Of a stretch of 64,000 nt of DNA, positions 40,201 to 56,000 are shown piece by piece. The stretch is taken from NCBI GenBank assembly GCA_029261035.1, contig JAJDCD010000012.1:70958-134957 (forward strand). The letters are read 5' to 3'. Origin of the DNA: Candidatus Omnitrophota bacterium. GTDB taxonomy: Bacteria > Omnitrophota > Omnitrophia > Omnitrophales > JACROU01. The position numbers and the translations under genes were made by a program. The notes below the pieces were generated by a model, which did no database searches, was not told where the DNA came from, and saw nothing but the letters and a program-made list of their open reading frames with translations. The stretch's first letter is position 1. Every line of letters starts with the position of its first letter.

Positions 40201-43200
40201 GGAAGGTCATTCACTTCACTTAGACTCAAATTCCCAACTCTTTTTTTAACCATATTGCTTAAATGCCCATGACTACGTCTATTCCAATACTCAAAACTCT
40301 CTTCTGCAGGCAAAAACTTAAGATTATAAGGAAGTCCTATTTTTTTAGCTGCATTTCCAAAAACAAAAAAACTAGGTCGTGTTGGGTAATTAAGAATAAA
40401 CACATCCACATTCCACTCTTTCATTTTCTTAAAGACATGTCCTTTAAATAACAATCTATCAACCCCATACAAAGCAGAAAGAATAAATGTGATTCCTCCA
40501 AAAACAATAAATGCATCTGCAACAGCTAAACTCATCAGATTCCATGAAGCCCCAGCCATAAGAAGGTAGCTTTTAACCAGACCCAATCCAAAATAAAACA
40601 TTGCTCCATAACTAAGGATTGACAAAGAGGTAAGAAAACCTGCCATTTTAATGACTCCCCAAACCCGGACATCCCACCCTTCTCCACCACTGTCTTTTCC
40701 AAAAAACAATTGAGTGATTGCTAAGGCAGTTACAGAATACGGAACTCTAAACACACTAATAAGCATAAGTTTTGCAAGACTAAAAGCACTCCAAATTAAA
40801 TTGAATATACTCCCTAATAAAATCTCAAAAAAACCTGCTATCAGAGGAAGTAGAATAATGAGAACCTTCAATCCCCCCAACATAAAAGTAAAAGGATATA
40901 ACATAAACTTCATACTATTTGTCCATACAGATTCAAAAAAAGAGGTTTTTTGTTTTTGAAATATGATTTTTAGATCTTCTAGACTTATCTCGTCACTGAA
41001 ATTCCACTGAACTAAATCCATCAATTCAGTTATTCCGCGTCCATCCTCTGCTTCTGCCCAAATCCTCAACAAAGTCCTCTGGGTGTCTATATCCATAAAA
41101 TTAATAAGGTCACTCAACCCTATATTATTATGTTCAGATATTAAAATAGATGGGATCTTAGACTCAACGCCCTGTTTCTCCCAAAAATTTATTAATTGAG
41201 TGATTTTCCGGTGATATAAATACCCACGAACCAAAGCTTCTTCATGTTCTTTCTTTAATTCAGGGGACAATTTGTCTGATTCTCTAACTTCAATAGTCTT
41301 ATATACAGCTTCAGCTACAGCTGATTTAAATACCTTTCTTGATTTCTTATTAAGACCATTTAGATTCACTGCTAAATTTGTTTCAGAAATACGTTTAATT
41401 AAAGCCTTTTGAATTTGCTTACTTTGATATGGTGACAATACGTCTCTCCACCCTTTAAACCAAGAAAAATTCTTATTAAATAGACGTTCGACAAAGAAAT
41501 ATTTCAGAATATTTCCAGGAACTTCAGAAGAAAATATCAAATCCTCAACAACATCATTCCTATAATTATGATCAGAGAAAACTTTCTCTAAAACAGCCGT
41601 CACAACCAAAATAACCGCTATCAAAGCAATAAAGCCAATTGGATTCGCTGTCAAAAGGGCTATATTAATTTTTCCATTTAATAGACTGGCAAGCAAAAGC
41701 CACTCTGATACAAAGACAATCAAAGAAAGAAGATCAGAAAAACCCAACTCAGGACCTCTATCAATTAATTTATTTACGGTATAACCTGGGCTTAATGCTG
41801 CTAAAAAAATGGTATATAATAAAATAAACCCTAAAGATACAAAGGCAGGGACTAAATCGACAACAAACCCTAAAACACCTCTCACAATACGAATAATTTC
41901 TAAAGGTAGTTTCAAAATAAAAAACAGCATTTTCTTAAGAAATGAGACCTGTTTAGACAAATAGAGCTTTTCTATTTCCTGCAAACTCAAAATGTTCTCA
42001 AAACTCCAACTTTTTTTATCCACCAAACGGGAAATAGGTCTTTTCAAGCCTTCTTTCTTCATTAATTCATACACAACTCTAAGAGGCTCTACATCGCCTC
42101 CATTAACTGCTATTGTAAATTCTGATATTAAGTCACTCGATACTCTAAAAGAACCCCATAAACCTATCTTTACATCATTCTCATACGCTATCACTTGGGT
42201 TACTTTTGATTCCGCTCCTCTTTCTAACCAAAACCGCAATAATTCCACTCTTGAGTCATGAGCTATATGCCCTCCCTGAGTTTCACTAAGTTGAATTAAC
42301 CTTCTCGTTACCTCTTCTTCAAATTCTCTCTTTACATCTTTATTCAAGTTTAGTATTTGCCCTAAAGTGAAGTCCAACCATATTCTGCTAGCTATTTTCG
42401 ACCTCATATCTTTTCGCACAGCACCAGGTAGGTCATTCATATCTGAAGCGCTCAACCTAGAATTCTCTATCTTAGAAGAAATGGCATTCCTATATATGTC
42501 TGTTTTATAGGGAGAAACAAAATTTAAATACTTCAAAGGAAGAAATAACGATTTAAATGATGTTGGAACTTTATAGAACCCTTCGTAAAAAAATGGCTTT
42601 TCAATGAGTTTGCTCAAATTGTTAGATATACCACTTTGAAAATAAGGTTCATCTAGAAATTTTAAAAATAAATACATACCGAACATTACGAATAAAACTA
42701 GCAAAGAACTGCCAACAAGAAAAGACAATGACCCTAAAGCAATTTTTGCCCAGAAAGCCAATTGAACCCCAAACAGTGTTCCTAATGTAATTTTTGCTCC
42801 AACCACCCCCCCAACAATCATTTGAATCACCCCGATAATAAAAGCGGGTGCTTTAAGATCTTCATAGCTCGTTCTGTCGTCATTAAAATAGAATCTTACA
42901 AATGCAGGAACTGCACTCATAAAAACAAAAATACCTACAATTAAGGCTGGTATTAATTTAAGAATTAAAATAGGAATTAGAATACTGTGATACAAAAAAG
43001 AGGAAAATAAATAAAACAAACTCGTAGAAACCAGAAAGACGGACTGTATAATTTTTCTAGGTAACCCTGCTCGATACTTCCCATAGATAATTGCCAAATC
43101 TTTAAGAGAAAAAAGATCCAACGAATATCCATTGCTCGAGATTAGCTTAGTAATTCTCTGAAAACGCCCTTCTAATTTAATCACTTCTAAAAAGGCTTTT

Positions 43201-46200
43201 TGAGGATAGAACGTCATAAGACTATTTACATTAGGGAGTTTAATCTGAGAACTCCCCCATGTCGTGGGTCTTAACTTAGAATCCCCCATCAAATCCGTAA
43301 CTCGATCAAAATACTTTTTATTTTTCCATAATTCAAAAATAAAGTATTCCGCATAATTTTTCTCATCAGTTCTTGAATTATTCATATGGGCTCTAGAAAT
43401 TAAAGTGGCCATAATTGCTTCGAGATATAAATCAATAACATGCTCTTTTAATAGAAGAAATTCACTAACAGAGATCTGCTTAAGAGATTCTTCGACATCA
43501 TCCTTATATTTTCTCAACACCTCTGGGCTTAGATCATTAAATTGAGATGCGTAGTTAAACCCACGAATATGACTCCCTAGCATGGTATCAATATATGTTG
43601 AACGATAAAAACCAACAGCATAGACCAAACCTGGCAAAGGAAGAAATCGATCTTTCCATGAGTCTTTTACTTTAGGAAAAGTATTCAACATAAATTCTTC
43701 TGAAGAAATATATTTAATAAATTTAAAGAACTTCCCTGAGAATTGTTTCTCATCAAGACTCATCAAGAGCTCAGAGATGATCAATTGACTCAAGAAAAAC
43801 ACGATAAAACTTAGTGTGATAGCTCCAATAATCCCAAATAAAATTGAAAGCCCCCAAGTAGCTAAAGAAGTCAAATTGAGTAAAGCAAAATACGGGTGGG
43901 CCAAAATAACGCTTCCTCCTAAGCTTAGAAGGGCTGGCAAACCATAGAAAGGTCCGTAATCCTTATTGGAAGTTAAATGCTTTGGAGTATTCTCAAAAAA
44001 GAATCCTCTAAATGCAATTGATGGCGAAAAAACAAATGCGACAAATAGATGTTGTACAATAAGAGGTATCATTTTCACTAAAACAAAAAATGTTGTAATA
44101 AGAAAAGAACTAATTCCCCAAATTAAAAAGGATGCATTCGTTAATAGTGATAAAGGTAAAGTCAGAATATATTTCCACCAAGGATTTTTGTTTTTCTCAG
44201 CAAGAGACTCCCATTCTTTTAAAGATATTTTGTCTAATCTCCAAGGCGAACTTCTATTCATAGTTTTTATATCAATCAATCGACTCATTCTTTTCTGCGA
44301 ACCTTCTCTCATCCACAATTCTAGTAAAAATTTTTGAGCATACTCTCTAGGCTTATTTCTAATACTCCAAGTTGGAATATTATTACTTGAATGATCTGCA
44401 ATGATATCCGTAGTAACAGAATCAGGCCCCCTTCCTTTCCATAGGGTAAACAACTCATCTCGAGCAACATCTCTTGGGTTTGGATGAGTTGTGCGATGAT
44501 CGTCATGTGTTGCTATATGAATCAAACGTAGAGTAATTTCTTTCTCAAACTTTATTTTAAATTGCTCTGGCAAAATATTGACGTGAACAGCAGGTATTTT
44601 CTCTATCGCCTTAAGTACTTCTCGTCGCTGAACCCTATCGCCTTTTAAATAATTTTGAAGAGCCGGTACTAATAGACGGTATCGATCATTAAACTGATAA
44701 GCCACTTCTTTATTGCTCAGCACTATTTCTCTTAGCTCTAATTCCTGCTTAACATCATAGACATACTCTTCCGCTTCTGCTGTTTCAGTCCAATTTATAA
44801 CATTTTTCTCAAAAGCTTTAAACGTATCTACTTGAGGGACAAACCCTAAATTCTCAAAGAAATTGAACAGCAATTCTTTAAACTCTGCTTCTTCTGAAAT
44901 ATCTTCTATTTTCTCACCTTTTAAATACGCCGTTAAGAATCTTCCAATTTCATGTGTCAAATCTCGATGTTCAGGATGAAGTTTTAAATAATCTTGAATT
45001 TCTTTATCTGAATCAACTTCTTCCAGAAAATGTCCATGCTCTTCAAATAGTGTCTGGATCCAATCTTCAAAGTTAAGTCCATCTGCAATAACAATAGTTC
45101 CATCTTCAACACCTTCTGTTGTCAGGTAAAACCCCTGAACATCTCCTTCTGGGAATAATTCTGAAAGCAAATCTCGAGATACACCAACTTTGACTTTTTT
45201 AATTTTTTTAGAATGTAATACAGCAACTGGAAACATCCCATAAAATTGTTGAAAAACAGATGTGAGTAATGCCTCATTCCTTGCAGTTCTTACGGAACTA
45301 ACTTCCATCGAATAGTTACTTCTTAACACCTTATTCAATTCTTCAAGATCTTCCGCGCCTGTATCCAATACCTTACTTGGAAGTTGAAGGACTTTGTTAA
45401 TCAAACGATTCACCCAACGCGAATCAACTTTATCTAACCACGTGCCAGTTTCGCTCAACTCTTCAGTCGGAATTTCTAAAAGTGCTAATTTAGACAAAGC
45501 CCAATAAAACTCTTCCTGAAAATCTGGCCTTGCCAATTTTAAGCGAGGAACAACGGTTGAACTAGAATAAGCCCCATTCAGCCAAACCTTTAACATTCCA
45601 TCGACATTGAATTCATTCATATCTTCCAAGTGTGCTAGTATCGATTTTCGATGTTTTTTTCCTTTTAAAAGCTTTCTTAATTGATATCCTTCAACTTCTT
45701 TCTTAATAGAACTCCATTGATATATAGCTGTGCTTTCCTTTTCATATTCTGTTAAATTTTGGAGGATTTGAAAACCTCTTTCATTTATTATTTTGAGAAC
45801 ATTTTTATCAAGCAACCTTCCCACAAGGTCTTCTTCATCACGCCTCTGTTTTTTGAGCAAAGTTCTTAAGAGCTCCAGCTCTTCTTGCTCGCCAGAGCTA
45901 TTCTGATATGCAGCCAAAAACAAAGTGAAAATTTTAAACTCTGGAGATTCTTGTGTAAGATAAAAGTTCAATTCTCTTGAATGCAAAAAGAAACTTCTGT
46001 GTTTTTTCCATAATTCATTAAATTGACTCCTATCTGCCTTACGACAAATAGTTATTAACTTCTTTAAGCGTTCATATTTTTCAGACTCAATCCCTGCAGC
46101 CAATCTATTAACATCCTTGATGAGATGTGCAGAAACAAGCTTATCTTTGGAATTAAAATTAAGTTTACTCTCTAAATATTCTCCTGATTTTAAAGGTGTG

Positions 46201-47801
46201 TGAGACTGTTCTTTCTGAAGTAATTTTTCTGTGTTTTTTTGAAGATTTTTTGATTCAGAAAGTGAATCTTTTGTTATTGAAGTAAGATCAGAGTGAAACT
46301 CATTTTCAATTCTTTTATGGTACAACTGATAGTTGTGTTGAGATTTAAACTTAGGACTAATTGCTACATAATTCATATCCTTTAGCCCTGCTTGCTTTTG
46401 GATGCCTGGTTGATGAAAACCACCTGTAATCAAAATAGCTTCTTTTATCCCTTGGTCTTTTAATTGCTTTTCTAAGTTAATAACTATAGATTCGTCTCTC
46501 TGCATAGCAATTAAATAAAACTGATCTAACAAGTCCCAATCGATCCAACTCTGAGCCTCTTTTAAGAACTCCAAGCTATTGAATTGCAATTGAATAAAAG
46601 TGTTTTTAAACTGAAAGTATTCCTCTGAACTAAGCTTAAGATGAGTGCTTTTTTCAAGAAGTTGAATCCATTGATGCCTTTGATGCCAATCTTTATCCTT
46701 ATTTGAAGAACTTAATTGAAACCAAATCATTTGATATATTTTCTTTAAATCAGAATCAAACGAAACAAATTGTTGAGTTTGAGTTAAATTAAGAAACTCA
46801 GAATAAAGCTGCCACTGAACATATTTTTCTTTTTTAAGACCCACGAAAACTGCCCATAATTGTAACCACTCAAAAAACGAGCTTTTTGAATCTTGTTTTT
46901 TAAGCCGTATTTGAACTAATTCCTTTTCGTATCGACTTAATACTTCGGGCTGATCTTCCAATTCAATCTCAATTGCATTCAAGATTTCATTCAATTCCTC
47001 TTCTAAACGATTAAAATCCAGGGCTTCTACATAAGGAATAATTTTTTCTAAAGAATCCATTCCCCCTTCTTTTAATTTAGATTTTAATTGATCAGGACGA
47101 AGCTTAAATACATCTTTAAAAGAATTGGCTAAATTTTGAACTATTTCAAAATCAGCAACCGTCAATTCTTTCCCTTGATACTCTTTCCAAAAATTCCATA
47201 ACTTTGAATTTGATTCCCGCCTAAAAAGAGCTTTAACATTTTTCTTAAGGACCTTCATCCGTTCAGAGTAATGCTGATTCTTCTCTAATATTTCTTTTAA
47301 AAGGGATAAGTTTTTTTCGTATAACTGAGAAGACTCAATACCATGAAGTTTTAAGCTAGGATTTGATAGATAAGCAGCTTCACCACCCGTAAGATATCCA
47401 TTTTCAATATACCATTCGATTACAGGAGATTCTTTTTGCTCTGTTTGTTGAATTGCTTTCTGGAGCCAAGGAGTTTTAATTTCTCCTTCATAACCCTCAA
47501 CAAAAATATGTTTTATTTTACGCTGTTGAGCTACATCCAACACAAGCTCTTTAATGCTACGCTGAGCCCCAGGCTCAGAATGAGCATCTAAAATGTGTAT
47601 GATTTTAGGACTATTTGAAGATTGAGAGGTTGAAGTAACAATTTTCCCTATACTCGGACGCACCCACAATGGTTGGGCCTGCGGATTTACTTTTAACGCC
47701 ACCTCATAGGCATAAACTGCATTCTGAGACAAATCAGTCAAAAGAAAGAAGATGAGCGTTATAAAAGCAATAATTTTAAGGAAATTACGACATTTCACCA
47801 T
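31251..47801 (-). CDS. Giant 5,516-aa multidomain membrane protein with TIKI-like, kinase-like, HD and HAD domains
   Basis: Function unknown. A signal peptide (about 1-31, ending NAVYA) is followed by a TIKI/EreA/ChaN-like domain (about 65-480). Its motifs are LDAHSEPGAQ (H74), FVEGYEG (E102), LHGIES and ITGGFHQPG. EEHGH near 922 resembles a broken zincin motif. Residues about 1200-2750 hold five hydrophobic blocks with some 20 helices in all. The first four are each preceded by a repeated helical signature (EGxxxRIxxLID...W...SLxE near 1165, 1544, 1917 and 2254). HEAT-like helices follow (about 2750-3750). Then come a kinase-like domain (about 4070-4260, WDFGGSF), an HD domain (LMHDVGK near 4420, KAD) and a HAD domain (LDIDGTLT near 4594, GDQGEFYGND near 4805). 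The C-terminus is IQIAA. Start ATG 47801, AAAGGAT upstream. Domain names are from motifs by eye. Confidence 0.85.
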   Translation of the reverse strand: MVKCRNFLKIIAFITLIFFLLTDLSQNAVYAYEVALKVNPQAQPLWVRPSIGKIVTSTSQSSNSPKIIHILDAHSEPGAQRSIKELVLDVAQQRKIKHIFVEGYEGEIKTPWLQKAIQQTEQKESPVIEWYIENGYLTGGEAAYLSNPSLKLHGIESSQLYEKNLSLLKEILEKNQHYSERMKVLKKNVKALFRRESNSKLWNFWKEYQGKELTVADFEIVQNLANSFKDVFKLRPDQLKSKLKEGGMDSLEKIIPYVEALDFNRLEEELNEILNAIEIELEDQPEVLSRYEKELVQIRLKKQDSKSSFFEWLQLWAVFVGLKKEKYVQWQLYSEFLNLTQTQQFVSFDSDLKKIYQMIWFQLSSSNKDKDWHQRHQWIQLLEKSTHLKLSSEEYFQFKNTFIQLQFNSLEFLKEAQSWIDWDLLDQFYLIAMQRDESIVINLEKQLKDQGIKEAILITGGFHQPGIQKQAGLKDMNYVAISPKFKSQHNYQLYHKRIENEFHSDLTSITKDSLSESKNLQKNTEKLLQKEQSHTPLKSGEYLESKLNFNSKDKLVSAHLIKDVNRLAAGIESEKYERLKKLITICRKADRSQFNELWKKHRSFFLHSRELNFYLTQESPEFKIFTLFLAAYQNSSGEQEELELLRTLLKKQRRDEEDLVGRLLDKNVLKIINERGFQILQNLTEYEKESTAIYQWSSIKKEVEGYQLRKLLKGKKHRKSILAHLEDMNEFNVDGMLKVWLNGAYSSSTVVPRLKLARPDFQEEFYWALSKLALLEIPTEELSETGTWLDKVDSRWVNRLINKVLQLPSKVLDTGAEDLEELNKVLRSNYSMEVSSVRTARNEALLTSVFQQFYGMFPVAVLHSKKIKKVKVGVSRDLLSELFPEGDVQGFYLTTEGVEDGTIVIADGLNFEDWIQTLFEEHGHFLEEVDSDKEIQDYLKLHPEHRDLTHEIGRFLTAYLKGEKIEDISEEAEFKELLFNFFENLGFVPQVDTFKAFEKNVINWTETAEAEEYVYDVKQELELREIVLSNKEVAYQFNDRYRLLVPALQNYLKGDRVQRREVLKAIEKIPAVHVNILPEQFKIKFEKEITLRLIHIATHDDHRTTHPNPRDVARDELFTLWKGRGPDSVTTDIIADHSSNNIPTWSIRNKPREYAQKFLLELWMREGSQKRMSRLIDIKTMNRSSPWRLDKISLKEWESLAEKNKNPWWKYILTLPLSLLTNASFLIWGISSFLITTFFVLVKMIPLIVQHLFVAFVFSPSIAFRGFFFENTPKHLTSNKDYGPFYGLPALLSLGGSVILAHPYFALLNLTSLATWGLSILFGIIGAITLSFIVFFLSQLIISELLMSLDEKQFSGKFFKFIKYISSEEFMLNTFPKVKDSWKDRFLPLPGLVYAVGFYRSTYIDTMLGSHIRGFNYASQFNDLSPEVLRKYKDDVEESLKQISVSEFLLLKEHVIDLYLEAIMATLISRAHMNNSRTDEKNYAEYFIFELWKNKKYFDRVTDLMGDSKLRPTTWGSSQIKLPNVNSLMTFYPQKAFLEVIKLEGRFQRITKLISSNGYSLDLFSLKDLAIIYGKYRAGLPRKIIQSVFLVSTSLFYLFSSFLYHSILIPILILKLIPALIVGIFVFMSAVPAFVRFYFNDDRTSYEDLKAPAFIIGVIQMIVGGVVGAKITLGTLFGVQLAFWAKIALGSLSFLVGSSLLVLFVMFGMYLFLKFLDEPYFQSGISNNLSKLIEKPFFYEGFYKVPTSFKSLFLPLKYLNFVSPYKTDIYRNAISSKIENSRLSASDMNDLPGAVRKDMRSKIASRIWLDFTLGQILNLNKDVKREFEEEVTRRLIQLSETQGGHIAHDSRVELLRFWLERGAESKVTQVIAYENDVKIGLWGSFRVSSDLISEFTIAVNGGDVEPLRVVYELMKKEGLKRPISRLVDKKSWSFENILSLQEIEKLYLSKQVSFLKKMLFFILKLPLEIIRIVRGVLGFVVDLVPAFVSLGFILLYTIFLAALSPGYTVNKLIDRGPELGFSDLLSLIVFVSEWLLLASLLNGKINIALLTANPIGFIALIAVILVVTAVLEKVFSDHNYRNDVVEDLIFSSEVPGNILKYFFVERLFNKNFSWFKGWRDVLSPYQSKQIQKALIKRISETNLAVNLNGLNKKSRKVFKSAVAEAVYKTIEVRESDKLSPELKKEHEEALVRGYLYHRKITQLINFWEKQGVESKIPSILISEHNNIGLSDLINFMDIDTQRTLLRIWAEAEDGRGITELMDLVQWNFSDEISLEDLKIIFQKQKTSFFESVWTNSMKFMLYPFTFMLGGLKVLIILLPLIAGFFEILLGSIFNLIWSAFSLAKLMLISVFRVPYSVTALAITQLFFGKDSGGEGWDVRVWGVIKMAGFLTSLSILSYGAMFYFGLGLVKSYLLMAGASWNLMSLAVADAFIVFGGITFILSALYGVDRLLFKGHVFKKMKEWNVDVFILNYPTRPSFFVFGNAAKKIGLPYNLKFLPAEESFEYWNRRSHGHLSNMVKKRVGNLSLSEVNDLPMEVVEVFYYELKDHLKDWNYYTLIELTKEKKEKFLNFLFALLIERLQTEESYSDTLIKVYSDLLKVLDEPSVLINKLEESRAFLIGSEEARNLWKTAHRLTPLKDYFEILKENQEVPAGLDVIFSISDFFRVVFMAPIALLYVLIAFPLEFIRVFFEIITVNRVSVPWTTPIINISVGVIAFIYSLALLPFQRLGLIVVNILTGFRFNSKLVFYDLLFQREIVYKYLSAQNYRKRYSLKEILFREENVKNSARFIYSTKSPDAYIRGLIKDKSTTAELNEFGILDPSELKVVEPSFKYRLKNEWSLEQIQKLPIGILTRYFDEIIEKYLEVINESPNDVAVKNFVYQSLLQMWLHGDIRVEDLFKDKTFDVGYYTYDQLIELYKSYSQPTEYIINEVEKLLQSRMNHDMLLRMTPGMKRDFHDLIVAEIRVMSLQEIIRISPEDQERYKGIVLERIITLAKTGDLAAVAYLTAKILKKDAFVLKALESITSIDVSYDAYSDVIKYFEASSGRIPFVVTSLKKKIMREPSTRVLSGEDVDKVLPKEIRDVFKAEIVAVLEAQLTRIGKVNSGKYSFAQMELIRLALSGSEKSVEILKKIPYKHKSFATLVRLIAVPTLRDYEWIGEDEEGDEYEFTVEEEINNTRLFMIDSDVTYLIEESGYDPLKFIDALWAEYKNPRSNQYTLDKSDINFLYKYLSQEESFVDDKLMAVRLLSHILKEPKWANEIGPSIDWLLSKLDQNKNNELGAAILNTLVEFGQQQHLSSVLKPYQEKIVKVYERRYLTSRSLKRKVERFASNEGDRLNLMVAVLGPEKLQENELAQFLDAFEYIRTDKNQSMIVSLIVEMVEKNILYFGDDKGKLSVRKFSPHRFIKALGEIGTKDAFIILEEIVEKSEKWKVRLGAYIELRDNNVDLNGATLKVLRSRERNKVKRSIAKERSKYKPVDLLRIYNNPKTSPIIMAEIRAIVFGDNLHEPNIRRSYKDVLERFGSEKLTEKGEVYLFELVQGIVHVNHPDWALTLLNMYEQLTNVDLKKEILNLVANARPSGADRTLRNLLRKALIESSINEELLSVLIEVNGRLANESSEKFIIEIFKDEKISANLRQKALEALGKISSTVEVMKVINDVFDKSLYRYVAEQIKLSAIDGIRYRASQNISDSEKAFEVAEWIMKQLKKEKVLEAVIEDDRSKAKRRIKRSLIEVVFGKQYRNNILELLFSYPKTKYRAIYRRLNTGRLYHGAAPEGTLNEEDVFPKGQWLIRSVTGTEAFLDGITRGLQPPITDRKARNQGKSDVRYIANEYDYVIREGGGGYGAGSQQFIDYNGALFLIPSEYYNEAKITRGIDFGHRKLPVIPFKGLIPVSQLGVVFIKQEHFQQLKAIKEQLMDDRGEVITSLRASDFFDKSSGRFGVGERKMSPAELDHFRLIDESEIYEEVIRNQNPFENGMGILVGVHSNEDNHSFVDALNRIIRRGELNGVALDQAKKDEISHFFRETPNSDIAETTFLSKLADYFNEDGKIKITSWMYMLIQGHELSEDLTGTTPWGPFGSNKARFMKRKSNGDEYYVKFYPEINQLRTEYVAWRMAKELGVNVPTDVRIIKMTHPGTGSTEYAIASKRIPGLIEKFPEGSDEQLRKSNEVLERFLFDMITLNYDGRAKQNNGIDNSVRLNGNPVVWDFGGSFHYRARGTLKNEGFNIQAIKDFMGDPTDITKPGTYASVAITDYEREFFGFIQTELGRAAQKRMAKKIAKLTDRQIKQIVYSAGFESKSDETVANNIITTLKEARAYVKEIYQLSDVEGSRQVKKMLETDDVTFRLNIKKIFKYLPPPLLSLMERPAGRRGKDGRGRPLALDIQQHTQNVLKGVDTDGFNSINIPGMNPRALIRAAALMHDVGKATITADKKTERALYDEQHLLHEEKSIEFAYQFLPSLGFSNDEIKIVEAILIADQFGDMFKHHANPKPRTPQDLVDNAFTPSEELKDKLNRRDLFRMAFALYKADIINDGAGSLYRMHIEPARKSLDGKPHFKGLYKERKVYPKAKVIYDLVELLEKKEFEELIKTQFVATMLDIDGTLTLEHGKLSKKAIELLVKLLKGKVFVSFATARLASKPEMKKVYEALRTSGMDDEDARYLIVYADNGAEILDGFGNLVRQPKRLWPGNYSFRRGEQDVKGVLKTMGIVLKQAKSEKELTEKNHAFLQKRKNYFRLHFRDIRNALPYVTRLQAALVTDGIPFTAMISGRRSIDFMPLGTDKASSLEDFVEHIERETGVSVHVNEILKIGDQGEFYGNDYSYLQFNGISVGKKNREHVYPLAYINDKGKRVMGEKATMEIMVKAKYRALPIIRERAELVPDQITFEDFKQSLDKHQSEIRGTYFVRPEDKIRFVLNYLERTSLVYRALKIIADEKMLVDPNKGLRSTEDIVELLKTTKLKLSDLEREKLEYILEYFVFAIFGNLNVSVYAKAPEVIREDIKDAIVSVVLPKVSRRIEKTVLSMSPLAQIFSIGKKTHWHVIEEAFEERIYLNDGKKRVVHYDGEKNYFVLDIYDSEEAQTPVKQIPILALRTSFNPLYRSLLITKTQFELLTAEEKEQLLLHEAVEEYVEVEESDRVSKYIRVKLEEVLTGNLHSERILSYYDISIKNIKSSHELAEIFEKIATFLGNPNLYEREPKNVVISDLDQKTNLISILLGGIPTVASSMEDLYDYLNQRIQVKGLEQFIDEIRMLSEQLDEGESLKQKIELKILENTILNMDLEEEFSISKVLKRVQEVIKGIDVESIKGKLENVGDEDPLKDVFQLLGAGLTAVFSEEALSASSLGEKGSRVENLFFDALRLEEEKYLIIKASVWNDLLRNSEVEEVVGVQQFLSLANSQIIIIKDEKVVLQADYVNNQQFKFVDRDLESLLKQLKNSLGKNRTFYPIINYSNSGSADRSDNHIVLERSPFALMASLSLLLDQGKNREGYFSKESGRYRVRLEEFTKHLFKNAMAQYLIQIAA

Positions 47802-47871
47802 GCAATGAAATATCCTTTCTTAGGAAATATAATCGTTTAAATTTACCATGCAAATGATCATAATACAAATA

Positions 47872-47900
47872 ATTATAAAAATATTTAAAAACTAGTTAAA
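47872..47900 (-). promoter_or_regulatory. Likely promoter of the 5,516-aa giant gene
   Basis: Minus strand: -35 TTTAAC (47900-47895), a 17-base spacer, -10 TATAAT (47877-47872), in a strongly AT-rich stretch. The 5' leader would be about 65 bases to the ATG at 47801, with AAAGGAT as ribosome site. AT-rich DNA gives chance matches, so this is moderate evidence, but the consensus -10 and exact spacer are notable. Confidence 0.45.
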
Positions 47901-48037
47901 CTATTACTATATAATGAGTTAAGTAGTTTTTGGTCATTTTTATGGGTTTATTTATATGGAAATAGCAATGCATGAGGCGATATCACTTAAGAATACGCTA
48001 AGTGGCACGCTTTAGATTGAACAAAAAACGGAACCCT

Positions 48038-48074
48038 CTAAGGTGCCAGGCACCTAAAGTGCCTGGCACCTTAG
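48038..48074. repeat. Perfect 16-bp palindrome with GGTGCCAGGCAC arms
   Basis: CTAAGGTGCCAGGCAC (48038-48053) and its exact reverse complement (48059-48074) are separated by CTAAA. There is no adjacent T-run, so it is more like a REP-type palindrome than a terminator. The arms are a self-complementary type of motif similar in plan to the GTGACWGTCAC family elsewhere in the window. Confidence 0.85.
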
Positions 48075-48076
48075 AT

Positions 48077-48148
48077 GAGGAGCTAAACGACGAAGAATCT
48101 TAGATTAAAGTAAGAGGACCTTAGATCCTTCGTTATACTCAGGATGAC
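48077..48148. repeat. Dispersed repeat (GACGAAGAATCT...CTCAGGATGAC type)
   Basis: GAGGAG...GACGAAGAATCTTAGA, then TTAGATCCTTCGTTATACTCAGGATGAC. It is a diverged copy of the 28944-29001 element with about 15 extra bases in the middle. It sits downstream of the 1,495-aa gene next to the 48038-48074 palindrome. Confidence 0.75.
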
Positions 48149-48175
48149 ACTCTCGCATAAGAATTCCGCTTCACG

Positions 48176-48203
48176 AGAAAAAGAGAGCTTATACTCTTTT
48201 TCT
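48176..48203 (-). terminator. Weak terminator-like hairpin at the end of the 1,495-aa gene
   Basis: On the minus strand AGAAAAAGAG pairs with CTCTTTTTCT across an 8-base loop (plus-strand arms 48176-48185 and 48194-48203). The stem is A/T-rich and overlaps the stop codon, with the T-run inside the stem. It may terminate weakly or bidirectionally. Confidence 0.3.
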
Positions 48204-51200
48204 TATGCAGCAATCATGATACGGCGAGTTGCTTGGATAAGATCCATGATTTGGTCTATGAATTGTGAGTTAAACTGGATGAAATACTGATTCCCTCTCA
48301 TCTCAATTTTTAATTCTTCGGGGATACGATCTTGGAGCAATGATGTTCCTTGTGAAGAAAGCAATAATCCGTAAAGTAAATGCGCAGAAAAAAGATCTTT
48401 GGATGAAATGCCTGGGTAGTTCTTTTGGTGAAATTGACGTGAAGTTTGTCCCAACAACATATTGTCTTCAAAGTTTTGTTTTGGAGCAACGACCAAAGAT
48501 GATTTTGGCAACCACATTGTAGGTAGCTTTCCCAAAACCTTCTTTGCCAGTTCTCTGCTTTTACTAGAAAACAGTTTTGCTAATTTTGCATTACTCTCTC
48601 CTAGATTATTAAACTGCCCCAAATACAAATTAGGCAAAAATCCAGCAATTCCTTCTGTGCTTTCAAACAAGAATACTCTTTCGTCATAAGTAGAATACAG
48701 CATCTCCCGAACATCCCCATACACAGCTTCAGAAGATACAAATACGATTACTTTATTAGGTTGATTTTTCAAAATTAGCTTCAAACTTTCCATCTCTCCA
48801 ATAAGGTCATCCAAACTAGTTTTGCCAGAAAGTGGAATTGCAACAACACCAAAACTTTTATCAACTAAACTCGAAAAAAAACTTTTAAGCTTTACCACAT
48901 CAAACCCTAAAGATTCTATCCCAGAATCAGTATTTTCTAAAACATTCACTAAATTTTGAGTTACCAGTGCAGGAGATTGGCTTGGAAACAACTCTGCATA
49001 CAACCTTTCTGCCACTTTCGTATTAGCTCCAAGAACCCCATCCATTAAATCAACAGTTACCCTACGAGCAGCTAAAAGGTCCTCATCAGAAATACGAGCA
49101 CTCAATGGATTAGATTCTAATTCCACCAAAGAAGAACCCAAAGAAGACCCAGATCCACTTACAAATCGACTAAAAAAGCCCCCTTTCTTAACAACTCTAG
49201 GAGGAGCTTCTCTTCTGGCTCTGGATACTCTTGGTTTAGCAGCGCGTGCATCGGCCGCTGTTTCAAGCTCAAGATCATTTATTCCTACTGCATAATCAAC
49301 AAAATCTTGAAGCTCATCTCTATTCGTAGGCACAGTCAACCGTCTCTCAGCAACAGCTTTGAGAATTCGATTAAAGGCTTTCGTTTTGTCCGTATAGTTC
49401 AAATTCTTCAAAGAAGGAAATGCGATTAAAAATGCAGATAACTGATCTCGTGTCTTTATTTTTTCAGAAGCAACTAATTGAATTAATTGATTAAAAGCAT
49501 CCGAAAAATCATTCCCAAAACTTCTAATCGCTTTTTTGAAGATAGGATTCGTTTTGAGAGCTTGTAAATCAAGAATTTTAACATCCACAGCTCCACTGGA
49601 ACTAGCCACAACAAAACGATTTTGCAATATGGCAAATGAACTCATTGCCCCACCAACAATCCCACTTATATTCTGTCCTGTTTTAGTTTCCAGAACACCT
49701 ACGCGATCTTTTTTAAAATAGAGAAGACTGGAATCTTCAGAAAACTCAATCTTGGCAGAGTAACCATCAACACCTTTCAAGGTGGTTATTTTTCCACTTC
49801 TCAAATCAATTAGCACTTCGCTTCCATAATTACTATCTGTTGTTTTAGCATTTCCAGCAGATAAATATTGACCATTAGCTGAAAATACTGGAACTCCTGT
49901 TAAGTGGATAGGGAAAGTACGGACCTTAACTTTATCAATCAAACGGTAGACTTCAAAGAAATATTGAACTTGCCCACTTGCAAAATCCCTTCTCCCAACA
50001 AATAAATACTCTCCTTTTAGAGAAAAAACAGCTCTGTATACCCCTGAAAAATCAAATCCAAACTGAGATGAGATATCTTCTCCTTTAGAAAAATCATATA
50101 TTTTCTCATAGTTCTTCGCTTCCCTATTCTCATCAAAATAGGTGTAATGAACAACAAGATATTTTCCATCTGCAGAAATCATTGCTCTTCTTGCATGAAG
50201 GTCAAAAGAGATTTCTCTTTCGAACCCAAAAGTAAGATCCACTACCTTACTTTCATTGTTTCTATAGCGCACAAAAGCCATATCCGTATCTCCTAGAAAA
50301 TTTACGGACAAAACATCACTTCCCAATTCAGAACTCATATTTGTTGCTATGTCGTTTTCTAATTGATATGCCTGATCTGAAGCTCGATCTTGATAAACAA
50401 TGAGAAGGTTTCCCGAATCTGAAAACTCAAGTCCTCCAGCTGTCAAAGAAACTCCTTCTAAAACAACCTTATTTCCAGAATCAACATTATAAAGATCCGC
50501 TGACTGCTTACTCGAATCGCCTCCAGTTCTAACATGGGTTGTGTAAGCAATATACTTTTCATTTGGAGAAAACTTAAATCCAACCGCACTGCTAGACATT
50601 CCTCTTACTACCTTAACGCCCGTCTTTACGTGATAAACATCCGTTGAAGTAAAGGACTTTACAACAATCAAATTACCCGAAGGAGAGACTTCTCCTAATT
50701 GCACCTGACTTCCAAAGTTAATGGGTAATTGCTTTCTGCTAAGGACATCAAAAGCAACCGCTGTATTGTCACGATACGACACAAAAGCAATAGATCCATC
50801 TTTAGAAAAAGATACTTTTTCTGTCGGTTTAGAACTTCCCAACGAAGATCGTTTCAAAACTTCCAATGCAGCATCTACACTCTGAGAGTCGGTAAATGCA
50901 TCAAACCAAGACGAACCATTACCATTCGATCCGTTTCCATTTCCACCCAAGCTAGCTGCAAGACTGACGCCTGAACCCAAACTTTGAGTCAGAGCAGACT
51001 CCAACCTACCTCTAAAATAATCTGGAGATTTCCCTTGCAGGATTAACGCTCTTTGGGATTGTAATTTCAACACATCCGAAATTTGAGAAACAACAACTGG
51101 GCTTTTTCTGGATTCCAACATAGATTCCAAATAACCCTCACTCTTCAACTCACCTGAAATCTGAGGGGTCAACCGCACATAAGACATCTTCTTATCCTTA

Positions 51201-52690
51201 GCAAATTGCTGTACAGCCTCAGCGTGATACCCTCCCGTAACTAAAATAGCTTGTCGGGCACCTTTATCTTTCATATACCTTTCAGCATGATTCAACATAA
51301 ACACTTCTCGTTCTTCAGCTCCAAGATAAAAATTCATTGCCGCGTCAAACACGTTATTAAAGAATGAAATATCTTCAAACACTTGCCTTTTTACTCTTTT
51401 TTCACTATTTAGTTTTTCTAATTGATTTACTATTTCAGAAGGTTTAAATCTCAACAAAGCTCCTGCATCTTCATTTAACCATTGATATTCATCGCGTGTT
51501 AATTGAAGGGTAAATATTTTTTCTAATAACCGAACGTTTTCCAATAAGATAACTATCTGCTCTTCCATTTCATTCAAAACTAAAGACTCTAAAATGAGTC
51601 CTTTTATTTTTTGGATTTCCTGAAAAAATGGAGCTGATTCCATCTCCGATTTCAAGATTTCCATTTGAATCAACTTCTTTAATAGAGGAAAAGACTGAAA
51701 TGAAAAATCCTTAGGCAGCTCTTTGAATAATCGTTCAAAAAAAGGTCTAAGCACAGCTAACTGACTTTGAGACAATGTGCCCTGAGAAGACGCTTTCAAA
51801 GAAAGCAAAGTCGCATTTAACTCATCACCTAAGTTCTTACTTAACTTAAACGATGAAGTTTCTTTCAAAAAGCCTTGAATCTCATTATTTAGCTTAGACG
51901 CATTCCACTGACTCTCAAGTTGTTTCATGCGAAAAAACCGAATAAGCATGGGCCATTCTTTTTGAAATTCCGCTTTTTCTAAATCAATATTTAAACGTTC
52001 GAGTGCAACTTCCTTCAAAAGTGAAAGTTTATTGATAGAACTCAAATCAGCTTCATTTTTAGAGGACATAAGATCTGAAAACTGCTTTAAATCCGTATTA
52101 AGATAATGAGGGATAAAAGCTTCTAATTGACGTTCTAATTTTTTAATGAAAGCACCTGTCGAAACAGACTGTCTCAAGACAAACTGAAAATCTTGGCGGT
52201 TTTTCCTGTAGTTCAAAGAATCTTCAATGCCGTAGGCGTTTAACTCACCCTTAGAAACTTGATCTAAACGATCTAACAAAAAAAGCTCCGGTCCTGTCAA
52301 CTCTGCTTCTTTCATTAATTTGTCTGCAAATTTCAAATTCTTTTTAGGACTTTCAGGAAAGAAGTTCAAGATTTGAGGGTCCAACTTTTCAATCCCCCCC
52401 TCTAACAACATTAAATCCACTCCTTTTACATCCGTTAAATACTCAATCATCGATTGGATATTTTTTTCAGCTTCATAATGTCCATGGGCGCTTTGTATAT
52501 GATAAAGAGTAGGTGCCTCTGGAATACTAAAAATAGATTCCACAATTGCTGTATCTTGAGGTAAGCCTAATAATTGATTTGTAGGTGCGCTCTTCAATTC
52601 AGGACGAACAACTTGTGTCCAAGCCAAAGAAGTAGAAATAAAATTTAATAGAATGAATATGCTAATAATTTTTAGTGTTAATTTGTACAT
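48203..52690 (-). CDS. Large exported protein with TIKI/EreA-like domain and beta-propeller
   Basis: Function unknown; about 1,495 aa. A signal peptide (MYKLTLKIISIFILLNFIST, to about residue 25) precedes a TIKI/EreA/ChaN-like domain (about 60-510). Its motifs HIQSAHGHYEAEKN (H69), LLEGG (E97), AYGIED (154-156) and LVTGGYHAEAV match the first domain of the 5,516-aa neighbour in order and spacing. A Gly/Asn/Ser linker (GNGNGSNGNGSS, about 587) leads to a beta-propeller (about 630-1045) of FS.DG.../VY repeats, as in FSPNEKYIAYTTH. A helical Arg/Pro-rich segment and a C-terminal domain ending RRIMIAA follow. The ATG at 52690 has AGGAG 10 bases upstream; an in-frame TTG at 52744 lies inside the likely -35 box and is rejected. 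Confidence 0.85.
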   Translation of the reverse strand: MYKLTLKIISIFILLNFISTSLAWTQVVRPELKSAPTNQLLGLPQDTAIVESIFSIPEAPTLYHIQSAHGHYEAEKNIQSMIEYLTDVKGVDLMLLEGGIEKLDPQILNFFPESPKKNLKFADKLMKEAELTGPELFLLDRLDQVSKGELNAYGIEDSLNYRKNRQDFQFVLRQSVSTGAFIKKLERQLEAFIPHYLNTDLKQFSDLMSSKNEADLSSINKLSLLKEVALERLNIDLEKAEFQKEWPMLIRFFRMKQLESQWNASKLNNEIQGFLKETSSFKLSKNLGDELNATLLSLKASSQGTLSQSQLAVLRPFFERLFKELPKDFSFQSFPLLKKLIQMEILKSEMESAPFFQEIQKIKGLILESLVLNEMEEQIVILLENVRLLEKIFTLQLTRDEYQWLNEDAGALLRFKPSEIVNQLEKLNSEKRVKRQVFEDISFFNNVFDAAMNFYLGAEEREVFMLNHAERYMKDKGARQAILVTGGYHAEAVQQFAKDKKMSYVRLTPQISGELKSEGYLESMLESRKSPVVVSQISDVLKLQSQRALILQGKSPDYFRGRLESALTQSLGSGVSLAASLGGNGNGSNGNGSSWFDAFTDSQSVDAALEVLKRSSLGSSKPTEKVSFSKDGSIAFVSYRDNTAVAFDVLSRKQLPINFGSQVQLGEVSPSGNLIVVKSFTSTDVYHVKTGVKVVRGMSSSAVGFKFSPNEKYIAYTTHVRTGGDSSKQSADLYNVDSGNKVVLEGVSLTAGGLEFSDSGNLLIVYQDRASDQAYQLENDIATNMSSELGSDVLSVNFLGDTDMAFVRYRNNESKVVDLTFGFEREISFDLHARRAMISADGKYLVVHYTYFDENREAKNYEKIYDFSKGEDISSQFGFDFSGVYRAVFSLKGEYLFVGRRDFASGQVQYFFEVYRLIDKVKVRTFPIHLTGVPVFSANGQYLSAGNAKTTDSNYGSEVLIDLRSGKITTLKGVDGYSAKIEFSEDSSLLYFKKDRVGVLETKTGQNISGIVGGAMSSFAILQNRFVVASSSGAVDVKILDLQALKTNPIFKKAIRSFGNDFSDAFNQLIQLVASEKIKTRDQLSAFLIAFPSLKNLNYTDKTKAFNRILKAVAERRLTVPTNRDELQDFVDYAVGINDLELETAADARAAKPRVSRARREAPPRVVKKGGFFSRFVSGSGSSLGSSLVELESNPLSARISDEDLLAARRVTVDLMDGVLGANTKVAERLYAELFPSQSPALVTQNLVNVLENTDSGIESLGFDVVKLKSFFSSLVDKSFGVVAIPLSGKTSLDDLIGEMESLKLILKNQPNKVIVFVSSEAVYGDVREMLYSTYDERVFLFESTEGIAGFLPNLYLGQFNNLGESNAKLAKLFSSKSRELAKKVLGKLPTMWLPKSSLVVAPKQNFEDNMLLGQTSRQFHQKNYPGISSKDLFSAHLLYGLLLSSQGTSLLQDRIPEELKIEMRGNQYFIQFNSQFIDQIMDLIQATRRIMIAA

Positions 52691-52999: not shown

Positions 53000-53000
53000 C
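52873..53000. repeat. Four GTGACWGTCAC palindromes between giant genes
   Basis: Copies lie at 52873-52883 (GTGACTGTCAC), 52908-52918 (GTGACTGTCAC), 52955-52965 (GTGACAGTCAC) and 52990-53000 (GTGACAGTCAC). The first two and last two are in opposite central orientation, so they can pair over about 120 bases. The last copy ends on the stop codon of the upstream giant gene. CTGTGC/GCACAG inverted repeats lie between the first two copies. Confidence 0.85.
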
Positions 53001-56000
53001 TATGCGGCTCTTTTAGCTTTTGATTTGGCCTTGAATTCTGCCAAGAATTGATTGGCCAGTTTAACGACATGACTGAAGTTCATCACGATTTGATTTGTTT
53101 CAGAGTTGTAAATGCCTGCTAGCTCCCCAGCTGTCAAAGCACCCACTCCATTTCTGGATAAGTAACGGCCTGTTTCGAATAAGAATTTGTTAATCAATTG
53201 TTTTTGTTCATTACTTAAACGACTATCCACACCTTTTGTTTCTTGATAGAGAACAGAAATAACTCCTTCTTGACCATCCGCTCTACTTACATGAACTACA
53301 TTCTCTTCTCTAGCACCTTTCTTTACAAGATTTTTAATGGTATCTGAAACAGCCTGACTTGTAATATTAACAACAGCAAATCCGGTACGTCCTACCGCTG
53401 TGGTTAATAACGGATGGTTTTTAAAATTCTCTTTTAATTGAGCTGCTAAAGCAGGATCTTCCACATGAATAAAATGCGCTATTCCCGAATCTACTGTCAA
53501 TGGATCGATCAAGCGTTTAAAGGATGCTTCACTATCCACCTGCTGGCTATTCGTCACAAATCCTTGATCTTTAATATTCGGAGCTGGTGAAGAAGCTGCT
53601 AACGCACTTACAGCTATTGCATTTTCAACCAATTTCATGGATACCCAATCGGTTGCACCACTATAGTGAGTTCTTAGATACTTACTTGCAGCGTTTTGTA
53701 ATGTTAATGGTAATGTAGAGACAAAAGGAGCTACACCTTCGTTGAGATAATCTTGTGCGGTGTCATTCATTCCTCGAAGAGCCATACGAATAACTGGATT
53801 ATCTAAATCTTGATTCTCAATAGCCTGTGCTAAACGTTGATTGAAAATTTCTAAGAATTGGGCCAGATCGGTATTACCTAATTTTTGAGCTGCCAATTGA
53901 GTTCGCTGGTAAGCGATCAACTCATCTGTAGCTGCTCTCAAAACTAAGTTATCAATACTGGATAAGGCCTCAATGTTTTCTAAATGAGTTAATTCATGAA
54001 TTAAATTGATAGCTAATGCATTTAGGGCTTCTTGATCTCCTGTAGCTGCTCGATCCACAATCAATTGATTCAAGACAATGGTTCTGTTTTCTAAATCAGC
54101 ATAGGCTGCTACCCCCGTTAGTGCTGCATCAAAGTTTTCAGAACGAATACTTCGAACAATGGATGGGTCAATATAAGCTCCAGCATTTATTCTAAGTGCT
54201 TGTTCCAAAGCTTTTGCGATAACTCCCTTATATTCTTGCATTTCAGCCGGCAACACGGAGTCTAGTAGTGATTTCATCTGATTTTCCGTTTGGAAAGCCC
54301 CCAAAATGGTTTGCCCTGGAATCGTAGCGGCACCCAAAGATCTAGCTGACACTTGAGTCATAAAACTCGTTACATCCGTCATTGGAAGCGTAAGAGATTT
54401 AACTTGATCATTCACCTCGGTTATGACGGTCAGTTCTTCTGCTCTTTCTGATTCTTCTTGTCCTTCAAGGGCACTGATAACTTCAGCAAAGGTTTCCCCG
54501 ATTGCCTCTGGGTGTTCTCGTTTCAGAGCATCAAACTCATCCGCACTTAAAGTTGGCAATGCTTTATAAGGTGCCGATAGCTCTGTTGAAATAGCCTGTA
54601 CTTTCTTTCCGCCCAAGACTTCTTTTGCTTGCTCATTAATCTGAGCTTCTAAAGATGCTATCTGACTCTTAAATCCTTTAAGAACTGGCTCAACCTTCAA
54701 AGCTTGAGTTGGATAATCATTAACAAAACCTTGAAGTTCTTCAATATAATCTTTGCCTAATTGAATCGCAGTTAAACTATCACTACTTTTCATAGACTCT
54801 TTTACTTCTGCACCTTTTTTCAATATATTTCTTGCCGCTATAGCATCTGTCGAAAATTCCATGCGACGAGGAGCTCCTTTATAATTCACAACAATAGAAA
54901 CGACAGCTTCGTCTCCCTGGGCTAAAGCTTCCGTTAAAATTGTGTTTAATTCGGGAATACGTTTAACAGCTTCATCCACACCTAAATCTAATGATGGGAT
55001 TGCACTTACAGATTCTGAGCTCGTAGACGCAATCACCGACTCCACAGATTCAACCTTTTTATCTCCCAAAGAAGCTAAAACTTCAATCTCTGGAATTTTA
55101 ATTTGAGCTATCTGTATGTTTTTAGATTGTATCTCTGCTTTAGCAGCTGCTAACGTTCTGCCAGAAAATTGACCGTCTACAGTAAATCGATTTTTAACCT
55201 TTGCTTGTATCGATGAAAAACCATATTGATGGAAAAGGTTCTGTAGAATTCCTCTGTCACGGTCCGTCACAAAAGTTTTTGCGAAAAACTGTTCACCCTT
55301 TGTCATTAATTCAGGATCTAAATCAATATCTTTCTGAGAGTAATAAGCTAAAATTTCTTCCACCACTTGCTCTTCAGTGTATCCACTATTCAATAAATCT
55401 TTAGAAGCTTCTTCGTAACCATCCAATGTCTTAATCACATCTATAATTGCTTCTCTTTCTAAATCAGATAGAGAGAAGAAAAGAGCATGATTTGTTTCAT
55501 GAAGCACATTTTTACGCGCTTGTTTAAATTCCTTCAACAAACCTTTGTTGGCACTAATGTCTTTACCTAAGGCAGGAGAAAAAGAAATAGTCCCTAACCC
55601 GTTGGTTTCAGCAAATAATTTCATAACTAATTGAGAACCTTCATAAATATTTGTCTTTAATTGGGTTACAGCTTTACTTTCAGCTTCTTCATAAGTCATC
55701 TTAGGATTTAATGAAAGTATTTCTTTCGCTAACTTAGCAATAAAAGCTTCTATTTGAGGATTAGACAAATCCAATTCCAATTCTTCAGCAGAGTCTTTTG
55801 TTGCAATTTCATAATACTTAGCTCTCTCTTTTGGATTCACAAAGAAACCAAGAGCATTTTCAGCATTAAATTCCCACTGATTATTAATATAAAGCTGTGT
55901 ATAAACGAGCTGCAAGAAGTCCTCTCTATTCGCTTCTTTATCTACGACAACAATATTTTCTAAGAAAGCATCTATAGGATCTTGAGGATACTCACTCGAT

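Follow-up and report, generated by a model that had tools for sequence, protein, structure and literature searches.

Hydrolases of the TIKI superfamily, which comprises the Tiki, TraB/PrgY/GumN, EreC/BcR135, ChaN, HopBA1 and RRSP types, have a parallel beta-sheet core flanked by helices, a catalytic set of two histidines and two glutamates (2His/2Glu) and, close to the active site, a basic residue that is conserved. In RRSP, the set is described as E3900, H3902, E3930 and H4030 together with the basic R4001, and the catalytic pair of BcR135 as H85/E113 (PMC6254334). We have analyzed a 64,000-nucleotide stretch of the genome of a Candidatus Omnitrophota bacterium (assembly GCA_029261035.1, contig JAJDCD010000012.1, positions 70,958 to 134,957 of the forward strand; the whole stretch is referred to below as the window). 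Two giant proteins encoded there, P1 and P2 (5,516 and 1,495 amino acids (aa)), begin with the same domain, which we assign to the TIKI superfamily and call the head; a third giant, P3, extends past the window.

Giant open reading frames (ORFs) of Omnitrophota are reportedly also the subject of a 2023 preprint by West-Roberts et al. Viral polyproteins carry many modules per chain, with a short recurrent sequence suited to a protease between them. Exported-looking giant frames were described in the same phylum by Seymour et al. in 2023, and the TIKI-headed giants are probably among them; the sections of that paper cited here call the roles of the giants poorly understood, give few annotated domains and make no mention of a shared head, a common tail or recurrent pentapeptides (PMC10066038). 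Another paper, in the part cited, enumerates domains of gigantic proteins from Omnitrophota, and neither such a head nor such a site is among them (PMC12419801). The integrity of giant proteins after synthesis has been called unclear (PMC12057145), and it has been suggested that huge proteins might be cleaved, the proteases and motifs being hard to predict (PMC11573180). No earlier description of Omnitrophota polyproteins or of such a head was found in the literature searched, which did not include preprints.

We consider it moderately probable that the TIKI-headed giants of this bacterium are exported polyproteins, each beginning with a hydrolase of the TIKI superfamily whose active site is intact, and cut at a pentapeptide that is fixed genome-wide. 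Like viral polyproteins, they would combine numerous functional modules in a single chain, separated by a short recurrent sequence fit for a single protease; unlike them, they are bacterial and encoded by dozens of genes per genome, and we infer their cleavage from sequence. MARTX-type autoprocessing toxins are likewise large secreted chains with multiple effector modules that include a TIKI-fold member, but as they are described the TIKI domain is one of the delivered effectors (PMC6254334), whereas here it is the constant head, and no autoprocessing protease domain was among the Pfam matches listed for the giants (the first 25 of 79 and 25 of 43).

The head domain and its superfamily

An initial annotation of the window had drawn attention to the same motifs at the N termini of P1 and P2 and had read them as the mark of a metal-dependent TIKI/TraB/EreA/ChaN-type hydrolase; the observation was confirmed, and the interpretation is supported in part. 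In P1, LDAHSEPGAQ starts at residue 71 (H74) and FVEGYEG at residue 100 (E102), GIE occupies 154-156 and ITGGFH 458-463 (H463). In the 1,495-aa reading of P2 (the longest frame has a TTG start and 1,513 aa), H69 and E97 are followed by GIE at 154-156 and VTGGYH at 484-489 (H489). The span given in that annotation, 46370-52520, covers most of the two domains. The N-terminal segments are indeed homologous: pairwise BLASTP gives E = 5e-13, with an alignment over the C-terminal part only, and one family profile matches P1 (1.0e-136) and P2 (3.2e-135) along nearly the whole domain. Since both sequences are rows of the profile's own alignment, the pairwise comparison is the independent evidence of homology. 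Further features were an invariant arginine (R435 in P1, R461 in P2) and the fact that the pair are two of 45 copies in the genome.

The 60 pieces matched by the profile in the source genome belong to these 45 genes. The domain is N-terminal in all of them, its start lying 37-152 codons past the stop at which the frame opens. The TIKI-headed frames are 503-16,199 codons long (median 2,546, with two running to contig ends) and sum to 139,947 codons, or 15.5% of the 2,700,877 bases of the genome. As had been proposed for P1 and P2, a hydrophobic, signal-like stretch with Lys or Arg ahead of it precedes the domain, and it does so in 45/45 family members of the source genome versus 0/225 control stretches inside the domain; the call was made by a hydropathy rule, not by a signal-peptide predictor.

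The catalytic residues are strongly conserved. In an alignment of 21 domains from the source and related genomes, the invariant positions (P1 numbering) are the Ala-His of the first motif, A79, I83, E102-G103, G154, Y161, Y429, A432, R435, G460-G461, H463 and P483. H74, E102, R435 and H463 are present in 45/45 source-genome copies and in 54/54 rows of a wider alignment, A3, whose rows are 17-25% identical to P1 and which consists of the two window domains and 52 of 78 related loci (L115 was dropped because of stops, others as partial or similar). A profile search favours copies that keep the motifs; yet no copy found had lost any of the four residues. The first acid, at position 72, is Asp in 39 of the 45 copies, Glu in two and Ser, Asn or Thr in four, P2 having Ser. 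In loci L145 and L147 of the source genome, Glu replaces Asp72, which makes an E-x-H like that of RRSP. We rate the 2His/2Glu set as present, the first acid being non-acidic in four of 45 copies, P2 included, and R435 as the conserved basic residue in every copy and row. The order D72, H74, E102, R435, H463 corresponds to the published 2His/2Glu/Arg set, the His-to-Glu spacing is 28 in P1, RRSP (H3902/E3930) and BcR135 (H85/E113), and the Arg-to-His spacing is 28 versus 29 in RRSP. The heads differ from RRSP in having D-x-H in most copies, and from the described TIKI hydrolases in a mostly helical stretch of ~330 residues between E102 and R435 and in being the N-terminal part of giants.

AlphaFold2 models of the two domains (mean predicted local distance difference test (pLDDT) 88.4 and predicted template modelling score (pTM) 0.80 for P1; pLDDT 86.3 and pTM 0.82 for P2) both have the predicted parallel beta-sheet core flanked by helices. 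In model numbering, strand 22-28 is followed by H30, strand 54-57 by E58 and strand 410-416 by H419 in P1; in P2, the same first two strands precede H30 and E58, and strand 441-447 precedes H450. As can be seen, the catalytic residues come after strand ends in both models. The fold matches of P1 found by VIA-align 2 (Z; root mean square deviation, residues aligned) were ChaN 2g5g (9.4; 5.8, 181) at the top, HopBA1 5t09 (8.5; 3.6, 161), EreC 6xcq (8.2; 3.7, 159), BcR135 2rad (7.5; 4.2, 156), RRSP 5w6l (6.8; 4.9, 154) and PMT 2ebf (6.2; 4.4, 147). For P2 they were BcR135 2rad (8.7; 3.9, 161), EreC 6xcs (8.4; 4.6, 169) and HopBA1 (8.1; 4.1, 167), and ChaN, RRSP and PMT were absent from the 50 matches listed. 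A Tetrahymena mitochondrial complex IV subunit, 8b6h_DQ, was also high for both models (8.4 and 8.2); our guess is that it may be a TraB/Tiki-type protein. Fold, catalytic set and spacing together support membership of the TIKI superfamily. The "metal-dependent" part of the initial interpretation is not established, because RRSP, a solved member, has been described as metal-independent (PMC6254334) and ChaN binds haem, according to the title of its structure.

Comparison with the Pfam families TraB, Erythro_esteras and Cofac_haem_bdg, which had been suggested, did not bear out membership. PF05139 (erythromycin esterase) had no match in the source genome, while controls matched in 3/14. PF01963 (TraB/PrgY/GumN) had none there either, and across the phylum it matched in 2/97 genomes, exceeding the cut-off in one of them, where the matching frame is a separate one of 342 codons. 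PF04187 (ChaN) exceeded the gathering cut-off in 0/58 genomes and matched below it in 22/58. Searches against the sequences of solved structures with the domain or its profile retrieved no TIKI member, the profile's 15 matches falling within the helical stretch, and NCBIfam and PHROGs gave nothing specific for the domain. With no head over the cut-off of these three Pfam families, we take the heads, judged from sequence and models, to form a TIKI-superfamily family that is new and so far without annotation, outside PF04187, PF05139 and PF01963.

A head that is a ChaN-like binding or structural domain and no enzyme is decidedly improbable in our view. ChaN ranks first among the fold matches of P1 and PF04187 matches 19/54 members weakly, at E up to 1 (best 0.001), but ChaN does not appear among the matches of P2, and the conservation of His, Glu, Arg and His in 45/45 copies seems to go beyond the needs of a binding role.

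The domain is present in 77/117 Omnitrophota genomes searched (at most 13 candidates scored per genome) and in 54/58 relatives, the source genome being counted in both. Relatives were retrieved by a profile search of genome contigs with a tighter alignment, A2; a single domain sequence used as query found none, and a first alignment (A1) proved too heterogeneous. Of 465 relatives the best 80 were retained, as 78 loci, and each of these bears Omnitrophota, Omnitrophica or Omnitrophus in its title. Outside the class, a single stand-alone copy of some 520-650 codons is present in several genomes (e.g., G051, G054, G056, G060, G081, G084, G086 and G112), and stand-alone copies recur among the loci (e.g., L094, L100, L113, L122, L130, L131, L133, L134 and L136); a single exported enzyme may therefore be the ancestral state. 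The longest open frame with this head, of 35,113 codons, lies on contig 37 of G018 (L020, L061). A search of a viral collection gave one relative, L055, on an IMG/VR contig, with 27% identity to the domain; we guess that it is mis-binned host DNA.

Strict pentapeptides that differ between lineages

The giants of the source genome share a pentapeptide (a dot or x stands for any residue). In 42 proteins (71,903 aa), A.SLG occurs 88 times versus 2.3 expected and G.SLG 25 times versus 2.1, whereas [^AG].SLG, with other first residues, occurs 38 times versus 31 and the majority of near variants stay at chance level. The resulting 113 [AG].SLG sites are spread over 42/42 proteins (mean of 200 shuffles 4.37, maximum 10), and ordinary frames of 250-1,450 codons have two in 30,311 aa. 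These counts cover 42 of the 45 proteins (L042 is short, and L053 and L140, at contig ends, were left out), 40 of them as C-terminal pieces no longer than 1,666 residues and P1 and P2 whole. A similar routine, with no motif preset, was applied to 20, 20 and 19 giants of the genomes G001, G021 and G067, selected among those listed and each cut at 20 kb. G001, which belongs to the same family as the source, has the same [AG].SLG (85 sites, 20/20 giants, shuffle 2.59). G021 has RSELR (144 sites, 20/20 giants, shuffle 0.28) and G067 has [AG]ARLA (98 sites, 18/19 giants, shuffle 0.41). The finding of RSELR was not wholly blind, as RSE[MVL]R had been seen before in loci of other genomes; relaxed forms there are RSEMR, RSEVR, RAEVR and RSEIR. 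In G021 itself, 14 one-letter variants of RSELR occur 0-2 times each. [AG]xSLG was also considered as a phylum-wide site and rejected: it is at chance level in G021 and G067, and 58 frames of other lineages have A.SLG four times and G.SLG twice beyond residue 550.

The sites are mostly not copies of one another. Distinct 15-mers underlie 122/144 sites in G021, 85/98 in G067 and 81/85 in G001, and the other five frames give 3, 1 and 9 hits, respectively, which argues for selection of the sites as protein. Clustering of flanks leaves 92 clusters for 113 sites in the source, 77 for 85 in G001, 127 for 144 in G021 and 77 for 98 in G067. That the pentapeptides are a translated DNA repeat or the legacy of recent duplication is largely refuted by these numbers and by the diversity of codons, and we hold it to be very improbable, even given some codon preference (AGT for Ser in 48/88 A.SLG sites of the source) and one cluster of 13 source sites with similar flanks.

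Sites are separated by a median of 401 residues in the source, 334 in G001, 515 in G021 and 356 in G067, and the first lies close behind the head. In the source, 32/45 genes have a site in the covered stretch, and in 31 of the 32 it is within 200 residues past the TIKI domain (median 72); the 13 genes without one are the stand-alone copy, P1 (515 residues covered past the domain) and 11 with 48-130 residues covered. The first site lies within 121 residues in 20/20 giants of G001 (median 53), within 177 in 19/20 of G021 (median 124) and within 156 in 16 of the 18 site-bearing giants of G067 (median 74). Ahead of the domain end, one site was found in the source and none in G001, G021 and G067, where the density beyond the domain predicts about 20, 16 and 18. 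Large hydrophobic residues are depleted in the flanks relative to background (0.31 vs 0.35, 0.27 vs 0.32, 0.28 vs 0.32 and 0.26 vs 0.33; P from 2e-5 to 5e-13).

Between the sites lie modules. Over roughly the final 1,666 residues of 40 source giants, the Pfam matches listed are mostly to single proteins and represent enzymes and signalling domains, such as PEPCK, UDP-glucose dehydrogenase, phosphoglucomutase, a macro domain, a LuxR-type helix-turn-helix (HTH), a histidine-kinase ATPase and WD40 propellers; PPDK and PEP-utilizers (2/30 each) and protein kinase (2/10) occur in more than one giant. In nine segments, 15 Pfam stretches were mapped (segments L180 and L256 gave no hit, and only the best stretches were listed), and no site falls within any of them: a WD40 propeller, NUDIX, DUF218, methyltransferase, AprA_N, three HTH, two kinases, HAD hydrolase, transaldolase, PPDK_N, PEP-utilizers and M23. 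The stretches of the two kinases and the HAD hydrolase start within 25 residues after a site. A strict site recurs between modules in three of the four lineages tested, family f14 being the one without.

Pentapeptides by which uncut giants dock or attach a chaperone, translocation machine, glycan or scaffold would suit the spacing (medians of 330-520 residues) in less hydrophobic stretches, and giants of this kind have been read as surface proteins in the cited parts of PMC10066038 and PMC12057145. However, cutting is the better fit for a site that is strict over five residues, is exchanged as a whole set from one lineage to another, hardly occurs in the TIKI domain and first appears soon behind it. 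We consider docking unlikely, though the least so of the alternatives.

C-terminal tails and the layout of the window

Among the 43 of 45 source-genome proteins whose C terminus was covered, Ala is the last residue in 41 and Ala-Ala the last pair in 33; a final Ala is lacking in L151 and in the stand-alone copy of 503 codons. Of 91 ordinary frames close to the window (150-1,500 codons), seven have a final Ala and none a final Ala-Ala. When 42 tails (P3 added, the two exceptions left out) are aligned without gaps from the C terminus, Ala stands at -1 in 42 and at -2 in 34, and hydrophobic residues prevail at -5 (95%), -15 (98%), -18 (90%), -19 (88%) and -22 (81%), a pattern predicted to form an amphipathic helix closed by Ala-Ala. 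A likeness to an ssrA tag is not claimed, as -3 is hydrophobic in only 31% of the giants and the long amphipathic helix is conserved. The tag peptide of the tmRNA L212 (source contig C24:327859-328266) ends in ALPLAA, its last two residues being like those of the giants' tails.

Closed frames end in Ala in 14/15 cases in G021, 15/15 in G067 and 9/13 in G001 (two of the G001 misses hold unread bases). In family f14, 12 closed frames end in Ser-Leu (six), Ala-Leu (three), Ala-Ala (two) or Ser-Val (one). Since Ala endings are frequent in the source genome, G001, G021 and G067 and rare in f14 and the related loci, the tail is conserved within lineages, not phylum-wide. The f14 loci, L273-L292, have the same head domain, with tails mostly SL or AL.

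The features of the window, which fits the polyprotein picture in part, are collected in Table 1. A Pfam scan of P1 found HEAT repeats, an HD domain and a HAD hydrolase; by eye, its body (31251-45800) combines these with clusters of membrane-like segments in one exported-looking chain. The middle of P2 has a weak match to a WD40-type propeller, far under the Pfam cut-off. P3 is a single open frame of about 23,680 codons (71 kb), which occupies 53000-64000 and continues to about position 124114 on the window's scale. By eye, it has RHS-like repeats and HExxH-like motifs; its N terminus is signal-like. No TIKI match in P3 was reported by the family profile search of the source genome, and its two pentapeptide matches in 23,704 residues are about chance level; its C terminus is nonetheless Ala-Ala.

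Table 1. Positions of the giant genes, head domains, catalytic residues, candidate sites and tails in the window.
Feature	Position	Strand	Evidence or remark
P1 gene, whole (5,516 aa)	31251..47801	-	ORF; Pfam scan
P1 C-terminal tail, ends IQIAA	31254..31343	-	
P1 candidate site ASSLG	31785..31799	-	sole P1 site, about 180 residues before the C terminus
P1 TIKI-superfamily N-terminal domain, about residues 43-501	46299..47675	-	profile match, AlphaFold2 model, fold matches
P1 H463 of GGFH	46413..46415	-	
P1 R435, conserved basic residue	46497..46499	-	
P1 E102, second catalytic acid	47496..47498	-	28 residues after H74
P1 D72-A73-H74, first catalytic strand (D-x-H)	47580..47588	-	His invariant, 45/45 and 54/54
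P1 signal-peptide-like N terminus (MVKCRNFLKIIAFITLIFFLLTDLSQNAVYA)	47709..47801	-	sequence; hydropathy rule
P2 gene, whole (1,495 aa from ATG at 52690)	48203..52690	-	
P2 C-terminal tail, ends IMIAA	48206..48295	-	
P2 candidate site GSSLG	49136..49150	-	ahead of the C-terminal part (last 310 residues)
P2 candidate cleavage/linker site AASLG	50945..50959	-	about 49 residues past the TIKI domain
P2 TIKI-superfamily N-terminal domain	51104..52573	-	profile match, AlphaFold2 model, fold matches
P2 H489 of GGYH	51224..51226	-	
P2 R461	51308..51310	-	
P2 E97	52400..52402	-	
P2 H69	52484..52486	-	S67 where most copies have D
P2 signal-peptide-like N terminus, from ATG	52622..52690	-	sequence; hydropathy rule
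P3 C-terminal tail, ends AKRAA	53003..53092	-	
P3 ARSLG, near the C terminus	54332..54346	-	

Proposed cleavage of the giants and its possible agent

In a tree of 121 of 124 head domains, heads are mostly sorted by lineage (12 changes versus 51.6 in shuffles). However, strongly supported clades join heads from RSELR genomes with heads from [AG]xSLG genomes, for example G021_L234/L235 with G000_L025 (support 1.0), so that the kind of site goes with the genome rather than with the clade of the head. Clades that mix lineages with different pentapeptides favour a genome-wide, trans-acting factor over each head acting alone.

The tree bears directly on the idea that the head is itself the processing protease and cuts its own chain at the pentapeptides, in cis or in trans across the giants. 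There is one TIKI head per site-bearing protein studied, with its active site intact in the sets compared (45/45 and 54/54); P3, for which no head was reported, has only about as many sites as chance predicts; and true endopeptidases are included in the superfamily, according to PMC6254334. But 45 divergent copies would all need a single specificity, f14 has the head without a detectable site, and the mixed clades speak against the simple version of a site-specific head protease, which we rejected. Overall we think this explanation unlikely.

The polyprotein reading would work as follows. A giant chain would consist of a signal peptide, the TIKI domain, independent modules on hydrophilic, pentapeptide-bearing linkers and a C-terminal helix with Ala-Ala. 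A protease recognising the pentapeptide would cut it outside the cytoplasm, the first cut falling directly behind the TIKI domain, which would release the TIKI enzyme along with the later modules. One trans-acting protease or other factor would serve each genome, and upon its change the sites of all giants would be rewritten. The later role of the TIKI enzyme could be that of a processing or target-directed endopeptidase or of an esterase, all of which are compatible with this scheme.

Several observations weigh against this reading or its parts. As to the superfamily, neither model reached a Foldseek E-value below 0.001 (the best for P1 was BcR135, E 0.092, and for P2 EreC came only at rank 7), and the VIA Z of about 6-9 for the TIKI matches is in the middling range of the tool, so that the assignment draws on the list of folds together with the residues. 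PF23202 (30/54 members, best 2.6e-6) and PF08349 (14 members, best 1.9e-4) outdo PF04187; they are probably chance matches in the helical part. As to the sites, the pentapeptides were discovered on the same data that were used for counting. Some near variants are more frequent than chance, AARLG with four and AARLS with three occurrences in G067, versus about 0.2 expected, and RSEPR with three in G021. In f14, 20 giants from six genomes pooled, with G065 also taken alone, showed no comparable pentapeptide, although a genus-specific one could escape such pooling. With one site per 5,516 aa in P1 and two matches in P3, not every giant would be richly cut. Few Pfam domains were mapped, few sites are therefore expected in them, and the comparison with Pfam stretches is a weak one. 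Modules such as PEPCK, PPDK and transaldolase resemble cytosolic enzymes and are odd in exported proteins, and of 37 closed frames in the related loci, stand-alone copies included, only six end in Ala and three in Ala-Ala.

Dozens of TIKI-headed giants can occur in one genome, and the pentapeptide signature was observed in three of four lineages examined. The general form of the polyprotein reading, that Omnitrophota make exported, TIKI-headed giant polyproteins cut by a lineage-specific protease at a fixed pentapeptide, with the site set rewritten in step ([AG]xSLG, RSELR, [AG]ARLA), seems to us evenly poised. The head domain alone forms a large family outside the Pfam and NCBIfam models tested, with a hydrolase site that appears intact and with carrier genes that make up the above share of one genome. 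With precise candidate motifs for three lineages, together with a shared head enzyme and a tail, the published puzzle of giant genes becomes a simple proteomic question. If the giants are cut, bacteria possess a large-scale polyprotein system in which site and recognition factor co-evolve, in a phylum whose members are believed to include predators and symbionts; this would account for the existence of giant genes in Omnitrophota and for their resistance to annotation.

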